IMG/VR virus record: IMGVR_UViG_3300031951_000699
Span: 1-33,640 of that record
Reading direction: 5' to 3' (one strand)
DNA from: a virus
DNA: 33,640 bases
This document shows, one piece after another, positions 8,428-25,017 of the stretch; the first letter of the stretch is position 1, and the number at the start of each line of letters is the position of its first letter. The notes beneath the pieces were generated by a model. The model made no database searches. It was given only the letters and a program-made list of their open reading frames with translations, and was not told the origin of the DNA. The translations under genes and the position numbers were made by a program.

Positions 8428-8845
8428 TTACGCTGCCTTCGTTAATGAACTCGAGAATTGCCTTCTTTGCTTCCTCTATGTCTATTTGAATCGGTGTGCC
8501 ATTCGGACCTGAAATCTCTGCGCGGATTTTGTCGTTCCTTCCCCAGCGTTCTGCGTGCTTTCTTTCAAGCCACCACGCTGCCGCTTGCCATCTGCCGTTT
8601 TGTGCTGCTTGTTGAATACGCACAACCGCATCAGCCTCAGCAGCAGCAAGAGCGCGCAAGACAGACTCCCGAAATTCCCGATAGTCTTTCTTCGCGTTAG
8701 GTTCTTGCGCTAACTCCATCCAGCGATAGAAAGTTGTTTCGCCTATTCCTGCTAGTTCAGCAGCAACCTTTTGGTCGTTTCCTGCCCGTAACGCACGGAT
8801 AAGTTTTTCCAGCGTTTCCGGTGTTAGTTTGCTCGGTCTAGACAT
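8351..8845 (-). CDS. terS: Terminase small subunit
   Basis: This 164-residue DNA-recognition protein of the packaging motor begins with LTPETLEKLIRALRAGND and an HTH (VAAELAGIGETTFYRWMELA, about residues 27-46), then an amphipathic Ala-rich helix and AWWLERKHAERWG, a typical TerS signature. The last 45 residues are acidic to neutral and overlap the terL start. It starts eight bases inside the glycosyltransferase gene, so translation of the packaging genes is coupled to the DNA-modification operon. Confidence 0.88.
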   Translation of the reverse strand: MSRPSKLTPETLEKLIRALRAGNDQKVAAELAGIGETTFYRWMELAQEPNAKKDYREFRESVLRALAAAEADAVVRIQQAAQNGRWQAAAWWLERKHAERWGRNDKIRAEISGPNGTPIQIDIEEAKKAILEFINEGSVNGSITQGTDIAVTDSGTTAMAEPTN

Positions 8846-9635
8846 CTACTCTTGGCAATTTCTCGAAGGTAATTGGTTTCAAGCGAATATTTTTGATTCC
8901 GCCAGCCTTCGTTACAACTTTACATAGTTCAGGATAGTGCGCTTCCATTTCGTACAGTACCCGTGTGTGGTCTGTCTGCCTATCGGCTACTCCGCGTGTT
9001 TTGAGTTCTGCGTCAATACCGCCAGCAGCAAAATACTTGGTAGTAGGGCAGAGATATTCGAAACGCACGACAGAGCCATTCTGAATAAACGAGCGAATCG
9101 TGCTTTCGTAGTCATCGCCCGATGCTTCGAGCAGTCTGTCTTTACCGATAAACACAGGGTCGCCAGCGTAACAGCCGTAGAAAAGTCCGATGATATAGCG
9201 CAGCCCTACGGAGATATGGTCGTGAAGGAAAAAACCATTCTCAACAGGGTTGATTCCCCACATTGTTGCGCCGACCTGTTTCGCCGTCTTGAAGCCAAGT
9301 TCAACGAGTGCGTCTAGGTCGCCTTGCCAATCCTCTAATTTCCCGTCTGCCGTACGCTGCCGAAGGCGGACAACATCATCGTCCATGTTCAGTAGCGGTG
9401 TGCCTTTGGGATAGTAGTGATGATAAAACTGTTGTTGCTGGATTTTGCCCAAAACACCTGTGACTACGCGGTATTTATGTCCTAGCACATACCGATAGTG
9501 GTCGCTTTCTTCTTCTCCTGCCACGAATACCGTGATGCGGTCAGGGTCTACTTTCTTGCTCTCTAGCCATACGAGAGTCTTATCGCGCAATAATTCGGCG
9601 CGCTTGTACGAAGGTATTGCTATTTGGTAATCCAT
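8838..9635 (-). CDS. TET-associated-type glycosyltransferase (DNA modification)
   Basis: This 265-residue protein probably moves a sugar from a nucleotide sugar to a hydroxymethylated base in phage DNA. It starts MDYQIAIPSYKRAELL, has ITVFVAGEEE near 34-43 and an acidic metal-binding triad DDD at 85-87 (NMDDDV). This is the pattern of the TET-associated glycosyltransferase family (GT-A-like fold). It follows the TET/JBP-like dioxygenase gene by 16 bases. GGAAGG lies before ATG at 9635. The sugar donor is not shown by the sequence; the UXS-like gene in the same operon suggests UDP-xylose. A capsid or host glycan as acceptor cannot be excluded. Confidence 0.82.
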   Translation of the reverse strand: MDYQIAIPSYKRAELLRDKTLVWLESKKVDPDRITVFVAGEEESDHYRYVLGHKYRVVTGVLGKIQQQQFYHHYYPKGTPLLNMDDDVVRLRQRTADGKLEDWQGDLDALVELGFKTAKQVGATMWGINPVENGFFLHDHISVGLRYIIGLFYGCYAGDPVFIGKDRLLEASGDDYESTIRSFIQNGSVVRFEYLCPTTKYFAAGGIDAELKTRGVADRQTDHTRVLYEMEAHYPELCKVVTKAGGIKNIRLKPITFEKLPRVDV

Positions 9636-15311: not shown

Positions 15312-16147
15312 GCTTTCCTATCCGCATACATTCTTTGGGCTATCCTAAACGCATAACTCACAAGGTCAGTCAAATCTTTTGCGGCTGCCTCGTCAATAGC
15401 GAGTAGGGCAATTCGTCCGAACCGCTTGGTCATTTGACCGATACGGCTAATCTCTGCGGAAGTCAGTTTGCGTGACTGCAACTCAGCGACATACCACGCT
15501 GTCAGCGCGATACACCCACCGATATCGTTGTTGATATGCAGCGTATCCCACTCGTCCTCGACCAACCGCGACAGATTCCATGCGTTGATACCCTGCGAAC
15601 GCGCTTCTGCAAGTTTGCTGCTAATCCTGATAACAGAATCCTTTGCAGACTTCACGCGTGGCAGCGGAATCGGAGTATCCGATTCGTATGGTTCTACCTC
15701 TTTAGATATATCGATAGATATATCTAAAGAATTGGGTTGGGTTGGGTTGGGTTGGGTTGGGGTTGGCGTTTCGAATTCGTTTCCGAAGTCATCAGGAAAC
15801 GCATCGGAAACGCGTTTCTTTTGCGTTTCTCGATACTTTGCCAGCCTCTCCCGTGCCTCTGCTCGTTTGCCTTCTACCTTTTCCCGTGTCGGTTGATACT
15901 CGTCATACGAGCGTATTTGAAATCCCTTCGCCGTGCGTTCCCATAGGTTTTGGTCCTCGAGTTCGTCACTTGGTTTTTCAGGATTATCGCCTACCCACGC
16001 ATTGACGATTTGATATGGGATATGCCCGTCTGTCAGTTGGCGGTTGGAATAGCACAGCCCTGTTATGAACAGGCGAAATGCCGTATCGGACAAGCCAATG
16101 ACTTTCGGGTGGTCTGCGAAATTGTCGTCTAGCCGTACCCAGCCCAC
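15308..16147 (-). CDS. DnaD-like replication initiator
   Basis: This 279-residue protein begins GWVRLDDNFADHPKVIGLSD, then TAFRLFITGLCYSNRQLTDG, a winged-helix domain typical of phage replisome organisers. Residues 90-165 are a charged and low-complexity linker with a TPTQPNPTQPN repeat. The helical C-terminal domain (185-279) may bind a helicase loader. The start is GTG at 16147, in a TAGTG junction with the upstream stop codon. The linker DNA holds a palindrome, a G-rich repeat and iteron-like repeats, as in initiator genes that contain their own origin. Confidence 0.75.
   Translation of the reverse strand: MGWVRLDDNFADHPKVIGLSDTAFRLFITGLCYSNRQLTDGHIPYQIVNAWVGDNPEKPSDELEDQNLWERTAKGFQIRSYDEYQPTREKVEGKRAEARERLAKYRETQKKRVSDAFPDDFGNEFETPTPTQPNPTQPNSLDISIDISKEVEPYESDTPIPLPRVKSAKDSVIRISSKLAEARSQGINAWNLSRLVEDEWDTLHINNDIGGCIALTAWYVAELQSRKLTSAEISRIGQMTKRFGRIALLAIDEAAAKDLTDLVSYAFRIAQRMYADRKA
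15701..15829. other. Candidate replication origin inside the initiator gene
   Basis: Three elements sit next to each other. At 15701-15728 there is an AT-rich inverted repeat with perfect 12-base arms around GATA. At 15734-15762 there are six G-runs of three or more spaced by TT (GGGTT repeats), a classical G-quadruplex motif on the plus strand. At 15767-15829 the hexamer CGTTTC occurs six times in both orientations, like iterons. They encode the flexible linker of the initiator, so protein constraint is low. Origin function is inferred from the lambda O-type arrangement and is not demonstrated. Confidence 0.5.
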
Positions 16148-21197: not shown

Positions 21198-21424
21198 CAG
21201 TATCCCCACATAACTGAACAAGCGCCGGAATCACAGTTCCACCATGTTCCGTTGATGGCGACAATGACTGCGCCGATAACTAAACCAACGCAGATTCCGA
21301 CAACGATGCGTCCGCGCCGTGTCAGAATAGATTTTGATTCTTGTGCGTCAATAGCCATAAGGCGTAACGCAAGTCCTGTGCCGAATAGCGCAGCGACTAT
21401 GTAAAGTATTGCTGGATATAACAT
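21197..21424 (-). CDS. Small two-helix membrane protein
   Basis: This 75-residue product has two hydrophobic segments (LYPAILYIVAALFGTGLAL and GRIVVGICVGLVIGAVIVAI) joined by a charged loop containing KSILTRRG, so both ends probably face the same side. The start at 21424 follows the AAAGGGTAATC site used repeatedly in this region. Not near the lysis genes, so a holin role is unlikely; superinfection exclusion is one possibility. Confidence 0.75.
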   Translation of the reverse strand: MLYPAILYIVAALFGTGLALRLMAIDAQESKSILTRRGRIVVGICVGLVIGAVIVAINGTWWNCDSGACSVMWGY

Positions 21425-21480
21425 GATTACCCTTTCTGTTGTGGTTGATTTTACAGTATGAAACGGCAGATACAAGAATA

Positions 21481-21510
21481 GGCGCGCCCACCGACAATGA
21501 TGAGCGCGCC
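21481..21510 (-). other. GC-rich hairpin downstream of the DUF932 gene
   Basis: Perfect 7-base arms (GGCGCGC/GCGCGCC) enclose a 16-base loop, 20 bases past the DUF932 stop. There is no U-run after it, so it may be a weak or factor-assisted terminator or an mRNA-end stabiliser. Unlike the four neighbouring gaps it has no hammerhead core. Confidence 0.45.
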
Positions 21511-21530
21511 GAATTTCTTGATACTGCTAA

Positions 21531-22520
21531 CTACGCATTCATTAGGAGTGCGTGTGCCTTGTTCTTGATAGCGTCAGTTGCGCCGAGAATGTTTCTCTCA
21601 GCACGAACAGCATTCTTGTTCTCGCCACCGCGTACTGCCTGTGCCCAGTCAGCCCACTCAACAACAGCGTTGTAAGCAGCCCACGCAGTATTCGCTACAT
21701 TCTGCTGTGTTGGCGCGTACCACAGAGCAGTAATCTCTGCGCGCTTGGTGTCAATGCTGTTTTTCTGTCGCTCGCTAGCGTCCTTGTGTGCTGCTGGTAC
21801 GAGTTTCTCAACAAACTTCTTGAAGTCCTGCTCGTTCATGCTGCGGTTGAGCAGATAATTAACTTCGCGTTCGAATTCCTCTTGGTAGCGCCAAACGACA
21901 CCGAGAGTTTCGCGTGCTTGTTGAACTTTCGCAGTAGAGCCAGCAGTATGCTTGAGCGAAATCTTGCTAACTGCGTGGTCGAGCGCGAGGCGAACTGTGT
22001 TCGTGCATACTGCGCGGATAGGTGTAACCGCAACAGTAAACGCGGACGAGCCATCGTGACTGTTGATAGCCATGATGTATTGGTTGATGGTATCAACGCC
22101 AGCAATTGTCATCGCTTCGGGGAATTTCATCGTCATGAATACGCGCGCGCCATTATTGAGCGAACCAGCAGTTTCGAACTTCGCACCCGAATCATCGGAT
22201 AGGTAGTTCAAGAACTCAAAAGCGTCTGCATTCTGAATCGGTGTATAGCGGTCGCCAACTACACCAAGAGCAGCCAACCCTTTCTTCGGGTGGTCGCGGT
22301 ATGTGATGAACTTGTTGCCAACAGTAAGAACTTTGCCATCAACAACAGCGCCAACATTGGTGTCGCTAACTTTAACTTCCCAATTCAACTGTGCTGTTTC
22401 GAGTGCGTCCTGTGCTGTTAGCGCGTCAGGTGTAACTGTGCCGAGGTTGTGCCATGCTGGTTCGCGGTTGGCGAAAAATGCGCTAGTGCCGTCAGCGAAC
22501 TGTTCGATGTTATGTGCCAT
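21531..22520 (-). CDS. DUF932 phage/plasmid-like protein
   Basis: The 329-residue protein begins MAHNIEQFADGTSAFFANRE, then PAWHNLGT, and has the DUF932 pattern GDRYTPIQNADAFEFLN, followed by TPIRAVCTNTVRLAL. Members occur in phages and plasmids and some are linked to host DNA or defence functions, but the activity is not known. It is the largest gene of this early block and lies behind hammerhead ribozyme 1, which would give it its own mRNA. AAAGGGTAAT lies upstream of ATG 22520. Confidence 0.85.
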   Translation of the reverse strand: MAHNIEQFADGTSAFFANREPAWHNLGTVTPDALTAQDALETAQLNWEVKVSDTNVGAVVDGKVLTVGNKFITYRDHPKKGLAALGVVGDRYTPIQNADAFEFLNYLSDDSGAKFETAGSLNNGARVFMTMKFPEAMTIAGVDTINQYIMAINSHDGSSAFTVAVTPIRAVCTNTVRLALDHAVSKISLKHTAGSTAKVQQARETLGVVWRYQEEFEREVNYLLNRSMNEQDFKKFVEKLVPAAHKDASERQKNSIDTKRAEITALWYAPTQQNVANTAWAAYNAVVEWADWAQAVRGGENKNAVRAERNILGATDAIKNKAHALLMNA

Positions 22521-22553
22521 GAGTATTACCCTTTCAAGATAGTTTCAAACGAG

Positions 22554-22608
22554 AGGCTCGTCAGTAGTGCCATTCAGCACTAGACCCTGCCGAAGCAGGG
22601 TTTCGCCT
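22554..22608 (-). ncRNA. Type II hammerhead ribozyme 1
   Basis: Minus-strand RNA in order: stem II strand AGGC, GAAA core, stem III CCCTGC-UUCG-GCAGGG, cleavage triplet GUC, stem I UAGUGC-UGAAUG-GCACUA, core CUGACGA, closing stem II strand GCCU. All conserved catalytic residues are present, with the G-C pair next to the core in stem II. Stem II is open, so this is type II. Predicted cut lies between 22583 and 22582, 62 bases before the DUF932 start. The first base of the ribozyme is in the stop codon of the upstream 70-residue gene. Confidence 0.95.
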
Positions 22609-22820
22609 TAATCTTTCATACCAGCAGATTCACAGAAATTCTGTATATCTATGCCTGTGTAATCTCCGATAATAGACGCGCCATTAGATGTTGTAACAGA
22701 CAGCGCACCTGCGAACATATTTGTTACGGAATCTAATGCTTGAACTGCTGCTGGTTCTGTGTGTGTTTTGCGAGCCTCGCGAATAATTGCTGCGATGACT
22801 CTGTCGTCTAATTGGTTCAT
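22608..22820 (-). CDS. Hypothetical small protein (70 aa)
   Basis: This 70-residue product begins MNQLDDRVIAAIIREARKTH and continues with a Ser/Gly-rich middle and IDIQNFCESAGMKD at the end. No family recognised. It overlaps the gene upstream by four bases (ATGA). Its stop codon TAA is the start of hammerhead ribozyme 1. Confidence 0.7.
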   Translation of the reverse strand: MNQLDDRVIAAIIREARKTHTEPAAVQALDSVTNMFAGALSVTTSNGASIIGDYTGIDIQNFCESAGMKD

Positions 22821-22999
22821 CGTGATTCCTTTACGATAGTAGGAATGTGTTCGCGTGTTCCGTTGTCAGTAAGTAAATCGTGTTTAAATAGACAACCTAC
22901 GCAACAAAACATACGAGTCATTTCGCCGTTGTCGTAAATGAACCAACGATAATGTCCGTGTGTGCCTGCAGACCTTCCGCACATTTCGCAATCTTTCAT
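22817..22999 (-). CDS. Small zinc-finger protein (60 aa)
   Basis: From ATG 22999 (TGATG junction) the product has CEMCGR near the start and FCCVGCLFKHDL in the middle, two Cys pairs that fit a treble-clef or zinc-ribbon fold. The product is acidic to neutral overall. Nucleic acid binding is likely but not shown. No hammerhead lies before it, so it is translated from the same cut mRNA as the 54-residue gene. Confidence 0.72.
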   Translation of the reverse strand: MKDCEMCGRSAGTHGHYRWFIYDNGEMTRMFCCVGCLFKHDLLTDNGTREHIPTIVKESR

Positions 23000-23163
23000 C
23001 ACGCACCTACCATGTACTTGTTAGGCTTAACGCTGTTAGTTCTGACAACGCTTGTGTTTGGAAGAATCTCTACTAGGTCTTTCGCTTCGGCTTCCGCAGC
23101 GAATTCGTTTCCTGCTGTTACTACAACTTCTACTGTCAATTTCACTACATATTCTTTTGTCAT
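22999..23163 (-). CDS. Hypothetical small protein (54 aa)
   Basis: ATG at 23163 follows AAAGGGTAATC, the shared ribosome-binding site. The 54-residue product starts MTKEYVVKLTVEVVVTAGNE and is a beta-alpha-beta-like segment with a short acidic helix (FAAEAEAKDLVEIL). It stands directly behind hammerhead ribozyme 2. Function unknown. Confidence 0.75.
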   Translation of the reverse strand: MTKEYVVKLTVEVVVTAGNEFAAEAEAKDLVEILPNTSVVRTNSVKPNKYMVGA

Positions 23164-23185
23164 GATTACCCTTTCGTTGTTTGCT

Positions 23186-23237
23186 GACCTCGTCAGTTAC
23201 CGCGTTACGGTAAGACCGCCCGTAGGCGGTTTCGGTC
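23186..23237 (-). ncRNA. Type II hammerhead ribozyme 2
   Basis: Order on the minus strand: GACC, GAAA, stem III CCGCC-UACG-GGCGG, GUC, stem I UUACCG-UAACG-CGGUAA, CUGACGA, GGUC. The stems differ in sequence from ribozyme 1 but pair perfectly, while the core is the same. Predicted cut is between 23214 and 23213, 50 bases before the start at 23163. Its first base is the last base of the TAG stop codon of the 141-residue gene. Confidence 0.95.
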
Positions 23238-23662
23238 TATAACTTGATTTCGCGTCTAGCGATTTGCGCATAGATGAAAAACTTTTCTAGCGCGTCTTGT
23301 GCTCGTTGTTGAAGTTCTTCGATTTTATCGACACGCTGCGACAAAACCCATGTTTGGTTGAATCCGCCATTTTCGCGGAACTTGTCAGCAACATATTGCG
23401 CTTTTTCAACAAGTTCTTGCGAAGCGTCTAGCGCGTCTTGTGAAGCGCCCCAATAAGTGATGTAGTAGTAGCGCATATACGCACCGATAGTGCCTTTAGC
23501 GTCACTCATTTCAAGTGTGTATGTTTCATCGTTTTGGCGAATCGTGTAACGAATCATCGATACTTTATTGCCATAAGTGCTTTCGCCTTCGTACTCACCG
23601 ATAGTTTCAGTTGTTACATACTTAGATACGAACTTGGCTTTTTCTGCAACGGCTGTACTCAT
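23237..23662 (-). CDS. Hypothetical protein (141 aa)
   Basis: I start at ATG 23662, behind AAAGGGTAAAT, giving MSTAVAEKAKFVSKYVTTET. The protein has a beta-rich first half (NKVSMIRYTIRQNDETYTLE) and a helical second half rich in Gln and Lys (DKIEELQQRAQDALEKF). No family recognised. It lies between ribozymes 3 and 2, so it would be carried on a single-gene mRNA with hairpins at both ends. Confidence 0.75.
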   Translation of the reverse strand: MSTAVAEKAKFVSKYVTTETIGEYEGESTYGNKVSMIRYTIRQNDETYTLEMSDAKGTIGAYMRYYYITYWGASQDALDASQELVEKAQYVADKFRENGGFNQTWVLSQRVDKIEELQQRAQDALEKFFIYAQIARREIKL

Positions 23663-23690
23663 TTGTGATTTACCCTTTGTTAGTGCTGAT

Positions 23691-23747
23691 GGACTCATCA
23701 GTGCTGGCATTTACCAGCAGACGCGGTATTGCTACCGCGTTTCGTCC
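23691..23747 (-). ncRNA. Type II hammerhead ribozyme 3
   Basis: Order on the minus strand: GGAC, GAAA, stem III CGCGGUA-GCAA-UACCGCG, GUC, stem I UGCUGG-UAAAUG-CCAGCA, CUGAUGA, GUCC. The stem III loop is a GNRA tetraloop. Core residues are all present. Predicted cut is between 23720 and 23719, 57 bases before ATG 23662. Its first G is the last base of the TAG stop codon of the 67-residue gene. Confidence 0.96.
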
Positions 23748-23950
23748 TAGTAACCGCGTGTCAACAAACTGTGCAATTTCACCAAATACAAATAGTGTTC
23801 ATTTGATAGAACTTCGTGTTCGTTGAGAAGCGTTTGATTAACAAGAATCGCTAAATCATTCAATTGACCGCGTGTCATAGTTACTGTTACTTCTTTGTCA
23901 AGATAGTTAGCGATTGCTGCGTTGCTTGCCGCGTGAATGTCTTGTGCCAT
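23747..23950 (-). CDS. Hypothetical small protein (67 aa)
   Basis: This 67-residue product begins MAQDIHAASNAAIANYLDKE and ends HYLYLVKLHSLLTRGY. It is helical with a hydrophobic heptad-like segment (QLNDLAILVNQTLLNEHEVL). No family recognised. AAAGGGTAAAATC precedes ATG 23950. It is the first clear gene of the leftward operon and sits between ribozymes 4 and 3. Confidence 0.75.
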   Translation of the reverse strand: MAQDIHAASNAAIANYLDKEVTVTMTRGQLNDLAILVNQTLLNEHEVLSNEHYLYLVKLHSLLTRGY

Positions 23951-23970
23951 GATTTTACCCTTTCGTAACT

Positions 23971-24029
23971 GAACTCATCAGTAGCAGCAGATACTGCTAG
24001 ACGCACATATTGCTATGCGCGTTTCGTTC
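23971..24029 (-). ncRNA. Type II hammerhead ribozyme 4
   Basis: Order on the minus strand: GAAC, GAAA, stem III CGCGCAUA-GCAA-UAUGUGCG (one G-U pair), GUC, stem I UAGCAG-UAUCUG-CUGCUA, CUGAUGA, GUUC. All catalytic bases are present. Predicted cut is between 24000 and 23999, 49 bases before ATG 23950. No clear gene ends in front of it, so it would remove the 5' leader from the first mRNA. Confidence 0.95.
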
Positions 24030-24223
24030 TCTACAATTCTGTCGTCGTAGTTGCTGTTCTATAGGCAGTGCGCTTACCACATCCGATTTACGGAAATAAG
24101 TGGCTAGTGATGTATCACGGGCGATGCCATCAAACACAACGAACGCGCGAACGCGTTTCGACTATCTGAATTCTGCTATGTAGTTATCTAGTTACAAATG
24201 AGCAAACGAGGGAGTTGTCGCGC

Positions 24224-24236
24224 GCGGTCAGACCGC
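24224..24236. promoter_or_regulatory. Candidate operator dyad
   Basis: GCGGTC-A-GACCGC is a perfect odd-length inverted repeat with 6-base arms. The 1-base centre cannot form an RNA hairpin, so binding by a dimeric repressor is the more likely use. It lies downstream of the minus-strand promoter candidate. Confidence 0.4.
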
Positions 24237-24268
24237 CTTCGGTTCCCGTCATCGTCATCATGGGAGAA

Positions 24269-24296
24269 GTATTACAGGCTCAGGCGGTAAAAGCAA
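24269..24296 (-). promoter_or_regulatory. Candidate leftward promoter
   Basis: On the minus strand TTGCTT (24296-24291) and TAATAC (24274-24269) are 16 bases apart. The first ATG follows the -10 box by seven bases, which would make the transcript leaderless, a common feature in Actinobacteria. This would drive the operon that carries the ribozymes. Confidence 0.4.
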
Positions 24297-24451
24297 ATCA
24301 GGCTGGCAGAAAGTTTTGGCGCGCCGTTCGAGCGTGCAGGCTCGACCCTGAGCGTGGCAACTTGAGCCCTGTGCGCCTATTACAGACCCGAACAGCCTTG
24401 CCCAAGGGTTTTCCCCCGTGCCGCCTCTAAAAATCGCTCTAATAGCCTCGC

Positions 24452-24480
24452 CTCACAGGGCTGGACAGGTGCGCTATTCT
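24452..24480 (+). promoter_or_regulatory. Candidate rightward promoter
   Basis: CTCACA and TATTCT are 17 bases apart, and the -10 box lies six bases before ATG 24487. Transcription would start at or near the start codon, a leaderless mRNA. No ribosome-binding site is seen before this ATG, which agrees. Confidence 0.4.
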
Positions 24481-24486
24481 TCGGAC

Positions 24487-24699
24487 ATGGCTATGGCTCG
24501 GGTCGTGATAAATCTCGGCGGACTCAATGTCAAAATTGAACAAGACGCTGCGTATCCTGACATCATTACTGATATGTGTAATCGTGCTGCGGTTTTATTC
24601 GCAACATCATTAGCACAAGCTACTAGCGCAGGACTAGAAATCATGGCATCAACTTGGGTTGATTACGGCGATGATGATGACGAGGACGAGGACGCATAA
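24487..24699 (+). CDS. Small acidic protein, sole rightward gene
   Basis: From ATG 24487 the product has 70 residues: a beta segment MAMARVVINLGGLNVKIEQD, a helix (CNRAAVLFATSLAQATSAGL) and an extremely acidic tail (DYGDDDDEDEDA). The direction opposite to all neighbours and its own candidate promoter suggest a separately timed gene. The acidic tail may imitate DNA and bind a host or phage DNA-binding protein; that is inference. An upstream start at 24418 is less likely. It ends in the A-run of the facing terminator. Confidence 0.72.
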   Translation: MAMARVVINLGGLNVKIEQDAAYPDIITDMCNRAAVLFATSLAQATSAGLEIMASTWVDYGDDDDEDEDA

Positions 24700-24729
24700 A
24701 AAAAAAGACCCCCCACCGAAGTGAGGGGT
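24698..24729 (-). terminator. Strong intrinsic terminator of the late operon
   Basis: On the minus strand ACCCCTCAC pairs with GTGGGGGGT over nine bases (one U-G) around a UUCG tetraloop, followed one base later by nine T. It ends transcription from the fibre-lysis-phosphoesterase operon. In the plus direction the same hairpin has only a weak T-run. Confidence 0.93.
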
Positions 24730-24750
24730 AACTTTTGCCACCTTTTGTTA

Positions 24751-25017
24751 CTAGGTTGCTAATTGACCAGCACCAGCGACATACGCAACTGCGTCAATGT
24801 AGTTGTCCGTGTGCGTTGGGTCATTAGCAATTCTTGAAATCTTCATAAGTGCCAGCATACATCCGACCATGTGTGCCGGAATAGGTTCATCTAGTTTTAG
24901 TACGGCTGCCCATAGTTTGCCGATGCGTTCCCATGATTCTTCAATAGCACCATAGGTATCTTGTCTGTTGCCACCAATAAGGCAACTCGCTTCCGCAAGT
25001 ATGTCGTCAATTTCCAT
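24751..25017 (-). CDS. DUF6378-like protein
   Basis: From ATG 25017 (TAATG junction) the product has 88 residues. MEIDDILAEASCLIGGNRQD, YGAIEESWERIGKLWAAVL and NYIDAVAYVAGAGQLA match the DUF6378 pattern found in many phages, a short helical protein of unknown activity. It is the last gene before the terminator and directly follows the metallophosphoesterase gene. Confidence 0.78.
   Translation of the reverse strand: MEIDDILAEASCLIGGNRQDTYGAIEESWERIGKLWAAVLKLDEPIPAHMVGCMLALMKISRIANDPTHTDNYIDAVAYVAGAGQLAT

Follow-up and report, generated by a model that had tools for sequence, protein, structure and literature searches.

What are four hammerhead-like RNA elements doing between the genes of a phage gene cluster? 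This question is raised by the minus strand of IMG/VR virus record IMGVR_UViG_3300031951_000699, analysed here over its entire 33,640 bases (the window), where the evidence from the sequence supports the presence of four type II hammerhead ribozymes, the first in a leader and the others at three junctions between genes. Hammerhead 1 lies in the leader ahead of gene A (23971..24029, predicted cut 24000/23999), hammerhead 2 at the A/B junction (23691..23747, predicted cut 23720/23719), hammerhead 3 at the B/C junction (23186..23237, predicted cut 23214/23213) and hammerhead 4 at the E/F junction (22554..22608, predicted cut 22583/22582). Each was recognised by an exact descriptor, by its predicted fold and by its covariance-model score (53.8, 63.1, 64.9 and 65.8 bits respectively).

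All four elements follow the same minus-strand order, namely stem II 3' arm, GAAA, stem III, GUC, stem I, CUGAYGA and stem II 5' arm, with an open stem II of 4 base pairs (bp) whose sequence differs among them (GAAC, GGAC, GACC and AGGC). From hammerhead 1 to 4, the stem III arms are CGCGCATA/TATGTGCG, CGCGGTA/TACCGCG, CCGCC/GGCGG and CCCTGC/GCAGGG, closed by GCAA, GCAA, TACG and TTCG loops; UNCG or GNRA loops close stem III in 16 of the 34 copies of the window's clade. The hammerhead core of clan CL00010 (CUGANGA...GAAA, A15.1-U16.1 and an NUH cleavage site) was present in 4/4, as were three stems with I and III closed by loops and II open. The exact type II descriptor matched only these four places in the window on either strand and nothing in 200 dinucleotide-preserving shuffles of both strands, and the minimum-free-energy fold of each isolated element was the hammerhead (4/4; z-scores of -2.6 to -4.4). 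An earlier note on this DNA had described four complete type II hammerheads with these stem III pairs and loops, the GUC, the CUGAYGA and the open 4-bp stem II, and had placed the 3'-product starts at 23999, 23719, 23213 and 22582; descriptor, shuffles and folds bear out the description, and the predicted product starts agree with the descriptor analysis.

A covariance model was built from 32 phage hammerheads, the seeds including three of the window elements and excluding 24029-23971. With this model the four elements obtained 53.8-65.8 bits (E-values of 4e-18 to 9e-23), the next match in the window reaching 14 bits. Over the 32 seeds, 99.4% of the 512 cells were paired and 13/16 pairs showed double changes, a statistic that is no independent proof since the seeds were picked by a descriptor that requires pairing. 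A candidate fifth element at 15785-15822 was rejected as a hammerhead at 14 bits in the same model. Upstream of hammerhead 1 in the leader, positions 24163-24142 of the minus strand hold GAAA and a short hairpin (CGCGTTCGCGCG) resembling half a hammerhead; no core follows, and the site was not retained as a hammerhead.

The position of the elements in the gene cluster, all of it on the minus strand, was then considered. Genes A (67 amino acids (aa), 23747..23950), B (141 aa, 23237..23662), C (54 aa, 22999..23163), D (60 aa, 22817..22999) and E (70 aa, 22608..22820) have no Pfam or PHROG match at an E-value of 0.001, and gene F (329 aa, 21531..22520) encodes a DUF932 protein (PF06067, phrog_1221). 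Hammerheads 2 to 4 occupy the gaps A/B, B/C and E/F, and the C/D and D/E junctions, where the genes overlap by 1 and 4 nucleotides (nt), carry none. In hammerheads 2 to 4 stem II begins on the final base of the upstream gene's stop codon (genes A, B and E); no open reading frame (ORF) of at least 35 aa ends at hammerhead 1. Downstream of each of the four stands a ribosome-binding site like AAAGGGTAA, followed by ATG. In the window's clade, 21 of the 26 hammerheads with an upstream ORF of at least 35 aa either adjoin the stop codon of that ORF or overlap it by one base. A separate promoter for each junction was rejected, as the 4 promoter-like sites found in 21300-24900 on both strands equal the level in shuffles (4.0) and hence give no promoter signal.

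Between stem II and the ribosome-binding site lies a short tail that in many copies is complementary, in reverse, to the core CUGAYGA. According to the predicted folds, the tail AG of hammerhead 1 (23969..23970, minus strand as for the others) and the UC of its stem II arm can form 4 bp with the core bases CUGA; AUCAG of hammerhead 2 (23686..23690), with C of the arm, pairs with CUGAUG over 6 bp, covariation adding to the prediction; AG of hammerhead 3 (23184..23185) and the arm's GUC can form 5 bp with CUGAC; and CUCGUU of hammerhead 4 (22548..22553) pairs with GACGAG, that is the core and the first arm base, over 6 bp. The mean core-tail helix was 4.68 bp in 34 clade copies, compared with 3.96 bp when tails were permuted among copies (0/1000 permutations as high) and 2.5 bp when their letters were shuffled. 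It was 3.94 versus 3.44 bp for all 99 distinct copies and 3.87 versus 3.55 bp for 77 later short-loop copies gathered by a pattern that does not touch the tail (0/1000 as high in either case). As a weak control, an anti-core match of 6/7 was observed in 25/99 copies against a mean of 10.5 (maximum 19) for random genomic 18-mers, the contrast being larger with letter-shuffled tails (mean 4.9 of 99, maximum 13).

For a covariation test, the pairing register was set without the variable core position and the copies with at least 5 of the 6 other pairs were kept (68/179). In these 68, the variable core base and its tail partner were C:G in 23, U:A in 38, C:A in 1, U:G in 1, U:U in 2 and U:C in 3 (Fisher test of core C/U by tail G/A, 6e-15, and 1e-11 after collapse to 54 distinct combinations, this collapsing being the sole correction in permutation and Fisher tests that ignore the sequence tree). 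The tail partner also differed in 13/13 disjoint similar pairs that differ at the variable core base; these pairs were pre-selected for 6/7 pairing, so that the test with the register set without the variable position is the cleaner one. Among similar pairs unfiltered for the core-tail helix, those lacking the helix differ at the core base without compensation (e.g. L009 4563 and L098 1147). Conservation of the tail through the pseudoknot between loop I and the 3' tail, part of the RF02276 (Hammerhead_II) consensus, was rejected by permutation for short-loop copies, which showed no excess over permuted tails (865/1000 permutations as high for 90 copies, 867/1000 for the 77 later ones); in the long-loop members the pseudoknot is visible, with 4.33 versus 3.83 permuted (18/1000 as high, n=9).

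In a folding model that ignores hammerhead tertiary contacts and co-transcriptional order, addition of 14 nt of tail changed the predicted fold of 4/4 window copies, stems I and III being kept, stem II lost and the core paired with the tail. Over 33 clade copies the mean probability of stem II was 0.11 with the own tail, 0.58 with a shuffled tail and 0.81 with no tail. In Streptomyces phages (L137 15362-15436 and 11788-11840; L138 14886-14960) the Shine-Dalgarno sequence that follows is a further possible pairing partner of the stem II arm (GUCC with GGAGGAC, GAUC with GGAGGAUC), and this pairing might form a second kind of switch.

Another phage locus bears on which property is kept at such junctions. 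Locus L101 (IMGVR_UViG_3300034980_000253) carries, at 10821-5306, six type II hammerheads (H) and four Twister-P5 ribozymes (T) at ten successive gene junctions on one strand, in the order T H T H H T H H T H along the transcript. In Rfam the four twisters scored 42.9-49.3 bits (cut-off 37.6) and the six hammerheads 31.5-58.8 bits, 4/6 being above the cut-off. Each of the ten ribozymes starts close to the stop codon of a 70-242 aa ORF, either no more than 15 nt past it or 2 nt inside it; a Shine-Dalgarno sequence and a start codon were detected 12-33 nt downstream of 9/10. The twister and hammerhead folds are unrelated, and therefore the property retained at these equivalent junctions would most simply be self-cleavage itself.

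The association of the ribozymes with their neighbours was examined with 50 hammerheads from 15 loci of the window's group, which gave 75 between-phage pairs at least 80% identical, 64 of them with scorable ORFs on both sides in both phages. Homologous neighbours were found on both sides in 10 of the 64 pairs, downstream only in 24, upstream only in 0 and on neither side in 30, counts to be read knowing that the pairs are non-independent and that invariant core bases help to reach 80% identity. In Streptomyces phage ShakeNBake, 8/8 hammerheads lie outside annotated coding sequences (CDS) and end 13-16 nt ahead of the next annotated start. The neighbour counts and this fixed distance to the start codon suggest that the ribozyme belongs to the leader of the downstream gene.

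As for the distribution of these arrays, a search with gene F yielded 77 loci, 11 close (65-67% or 100% identity) and 66 distant. Each of the 11 close relatives has 2-5 complete type II hammerheads in the same region, and the elements of locus L005 are identical to those of the window; a descriptor scan of the 66 distant DUF932 loci (655 kb of fetched stretches) found 0 hammerheads, and four whole contigs with distant DUF932 genes had none. The loci first gathered contained 162 descriptor hits (100 distinct sequences), all type II, in a set gathered partly with a type II pattern, the gene F loci having been gathered without it. Among the 44 stretches of a first pattern set, 41 held a complete hammerhead and 24 two or more, and L115, L118 and L122 held no complete one. 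A later pattern scan matched at least 120 stretches; 68 new loci (L151-L218) among the matches listed were analysed, and the descriptor hit 58/68 of them, with 105 type II, 2 type I and 2 type III elements. GTDB contigs gave 11 pattern hits, of which only L131 passes the descriptor. The hammerhead at L131 5975-6027, on a Saccharopolyspora kobensis contig, has the same sequence as that at L109 1664-1716 in an IMG/VR record, and is therefore probably a prophage copy.

Scans of whole records revealed larger arrays, with 8 hammerheads each in contigs G008 and G012. Streptomyces phage records carried 8 in ShakeNBake, 7 in Dryad, 7 in Gibson, 6 in Wentworth, 6 in phiRKBJ001, 8 in Yara, 9 in Puginator and 11 in Celia, that is 6-11 in 8/12 records scanned, and none in KimJongPhill, phiScoe3, Lika and Nanodon; as these phages were chosen by DNA similarity to array loci, the counts are no survey. 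In Celia, a hammerhead was present in 10/11 gaps of at least 50 nt versus 1/10 shorter gaps; the short-gap element (46401-46461) reaches into the start annotated for gene 71, and at 48465-48548 the match has a weak score of 20 bits. CDS are the only features listed in the annotated stretches of ShakeNBake and Celia. At gathering score, Rfam reported 7 of Celia's 11 hammerheads, 10 within 8.5 kb of Puginator, none in the ShakeNBake and Dryad stretches nor in L096, and 0 in L004, L006-L010, L012, L013 and L085. Given these misses and those in the window, overlooked copies may exist in other annotated phage genomes.

Other elements were also noticed. The sole array gap of at least 50 nt without a hammerhead in Celia (MN062705.1 48717-48801, equal to L149 8218-8302) is 85 nt long, G+C rich and structured-looking, with nothing in Rfam at gathering score, and is a candidate for another ribozyme. 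In L099, intergenic elements resembling transfer RNA (tRNA) at 8468-8513 and about 8862-8912 have a T-arm-like GGTTCGAGTCC at their end. Matches to the first occur in 119 named phages (104 Streptomyces, 15 Mycobacterium) and, among the matches listed, lie mostly outside annotated features. These tRNA-like elements are possibly another kind of junction element. The array DNA of the window had no match among named phages, and relatives of gene F occur mostly in actinobacterial phages at 42% identity or less among the matches listed, so that an actinobacterial host for the window phage is only a guess.

The sequence, position and conservation of the elements, the core-tail covariation and the predicted fold switch argue for a model, to which a probability of roughly 80% is given, in which the four hammerheads dice the leftward operon transcript by self-cleavage during transcription and fix the downstream 5' ends, the tail acting as a product trap or timer; activity, its timing and any effect on the stability or translation of messenger RNA (mRNA) are what this model would predict. 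The transcript would be cut while being synthesised, once in the leader and three times at gene junctions. Each cut would leave the stop codon on the upstream piece, whose 3' end would be the stem III hairpin, and the next mRNA would begin with a stem I hairpin bearing a 5' hydroxyl, followed by the freed core, the ribosome-binding site and the start codon. By its topology the type II hammerhead, unlike types I and III, should place a hairpin at both new ends (III at the 3' and I at the 5' end). The product mRNAs would span one or a few genes and have defined 5' ends, each ribozyme being functionally tied to the downstream gene whose 5' end it would set. Before cleavage the tail would compete with stem II, so that cutting would have to be quick and co-transcriptional; after cleavage it would lock the core in a second hairpin beside stem I and render the cut irreversible. 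The tail may seize the freed core (a trap), limit the time for cutting (a timer) or make cutting depend on translation (a switch).

Several results weigh against this dicing model. The Rfam scan of the window at gathering score gave 0 matches and missed all four hammerheads; at the lax 'evalue' threshold RF02276 recovered 3/4 elements at 32.9, 32.2 and 29.9 bits, and hammerhead 1 (24029-23971) was absent even there. By the gathering cut-off of 37 bits, 0/4 belong to RF02276, and the covariance-model search that the earlier note had proposed as a check therefore fails at the Rfam cut-off and succeeds with the phage-built model. A general rule by which the ribozyme starts at the stop codon was rejected, the start being found there in 24/44 cases of the first pattern set, 0/9 of ShakeNBake and Dryad and 22/70 of the later set. 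A core-tail match of the strength used in the covariation test is absent in 111/179 copies and from most Streptomyces copies, and, if taken literally, the most stable predicted fold with the tail would be an inactive finished RNA. Finally, 14 of the 18 consensus hammerheads tested by Perreault 2011 (PMC3088659) were active and 4 inactive, cleavage of the present elements being predicted only.

The tail itself lends itself to another reading, in which the core-tail hairpin is a default off state and a ribosome or other factor near the downstream start frees the ribozyme, cutting then following translation or the growth state. The location of the tail just ahead of the ribosome-binding site, the loss of stem II probability with own tails and the covariation of the variable core base with the tail would all suit such gating. 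However, the product trap accounts for the same pairing, the folding model omits tertiary contacts and co-transcriptional order, Streptomyces copies are mostly tail-less and no ligand or factor is known; gating is consequently regarded as possible, though not as the probable state of affairs. The ribozymes could instead be mainly conserved linkers for swaps of gene cassettes between phages, with cleavage secondary. Loci L004 and L005 are 97.8% identical until 17 nt past hammerhead 1, differ in their genes between hammerheads 1 and 3, and resume with a 95.6% identical block 3 nt before hammerhead 3, and the 30 similar pairs with neither neighbour homologous point the same way. Nonetheless, gene borders are break points of phage mosaics anyway, L004 and L005 diverge again from near the D/E junction, where there is no hammerhead, to hammerhead 4, and recombination needs neither exact catalytic cores nor a mix of twisters and hammerheads, which makes exchange unlikely as the chief role.

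Tandem hammerheads of retrozymes and viroid-like RNAs are known to yield circles, and adjacent hammerheads might likewise release a cistron that is later circularised or spliced. Spliced or circular products were sought and none detected in the work of Perreault 2011 (PMC3088659), and the differing stem II of the four window copies works against pairing of one cistron's ends, even if a G-U allows GGAC to pair with the hammerhead 1 arm and other arrays do repeat arms, so that excision appears very unlikely. Hairpins that merely shield mRNA ends or block exonucleases, without catalysis, would profit from the UNCG and GNRA loops of stem III, but they would not demand a letter-exact GAAA, CUGANGA and GUC, nor twisters in the same role, and this explanation is scarcely credible. 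Dicing by self-cleavage thus stays the preferred reading of the window.

A wider proposal is put forward tentatively, and is at present rather doubtful: hammerheads and twisters might be interchangeable punctuation of phage gene clusters, a large subset of the hammerheads carrying a covarying anti-core tail that would turn them into one-shot or translation-gated cutters. If true, operon dicing would be under a natural control that needs no protein, the ribozyme cutting at once or staying locked until a ribosome removes the tail. The purpose of clustered phage hammerheads was left open by Perreault 2011 (PMC3088659); with arrays that occupy almost all wide gene gaps, junctions shared with twisters, the link to the downstream gene and the anti-core tail, this question becomes concretely testable, and array phages with recorded, named Streptomyces hosts exist (ShakeNBake, Gibson, Celia and Puginator).

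Clustered phage hammerheads are already known as a kind. According to Perreault 2011 (PMC3088659), prophage hammerhead clusters flank single genes or short gene blocks 'on many occasions' and were proposed to process phage transcripts to operon- or gene-length mRNAs; cleavage was seen in vitro for three tandem arrangements, and in E. coli too for one of the three. The earlier note's premise, phage hammerheads being known as single elements, is therefore wrong; its identification of the elements is supported by the tests made, and the core-pairing 3' tail and the larger arrays elsewhere had escaped it. The window shares with the prophage clusters of Agrobacterium tumefaciens, Azorhizobium caulinodans and Clostridium scindens the presence of several hammerheads flanking genes or gene blocks; processing of long transcripts has been proposed there too, and tandem cleavage demonstrated. 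HHphage of haloviruses HF1 and HF2 (PMC3088659) lies 13 nt ahead of a start codon, and a 5' end has been mapped at most 3 nt from its cleavage site; unlike the window arrays, it is a single element with a variant core. With the type II hammerheads of RF02276 the window copies have in common the core, the three stems, the open stem II, the GUC site and the phage setting, and they differ by a loop I of 5-6 nt, no detectable pseudoknot between loop I and tail, core-tail complementarity in its place and a score below the cut-off; according to PMC3088659, about 40% of hammerheads likely have a loop pseudoknot, and many have other contacts or none.

Self-cleaving RNAs near phage genes and other ribozymes, here too as in L101, were likewise reported with the genes associated with twister, pistol, hatchet and twister-sister ribozymes, hammerhead and twister being linked in print to phage genes and to other ribozymes (PMC4604425); in L101, in contrast, twisters and hammerheads hold equivalent consecutive junctions of one cluster. 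No mixed array of that sort was found in the literature searched, which comprised open-licence PMC papers and did not cover the key twister papers of 2014 and 2015, and neither the covarying tail nor the link to the downstream gene was found described in the sections of PMC3088659 consulted. Compared with the published prophage clusters, the present arrays are longer, with up to 11 elements; the first search sets showed a single topology, and one array also contains twisters. What goes beyond the literature found is thus a short-loop class with core-tail pairing, the size of the Streptomyces arrays, the array that combines hammerheads with twisters and the association with the downstream gene.

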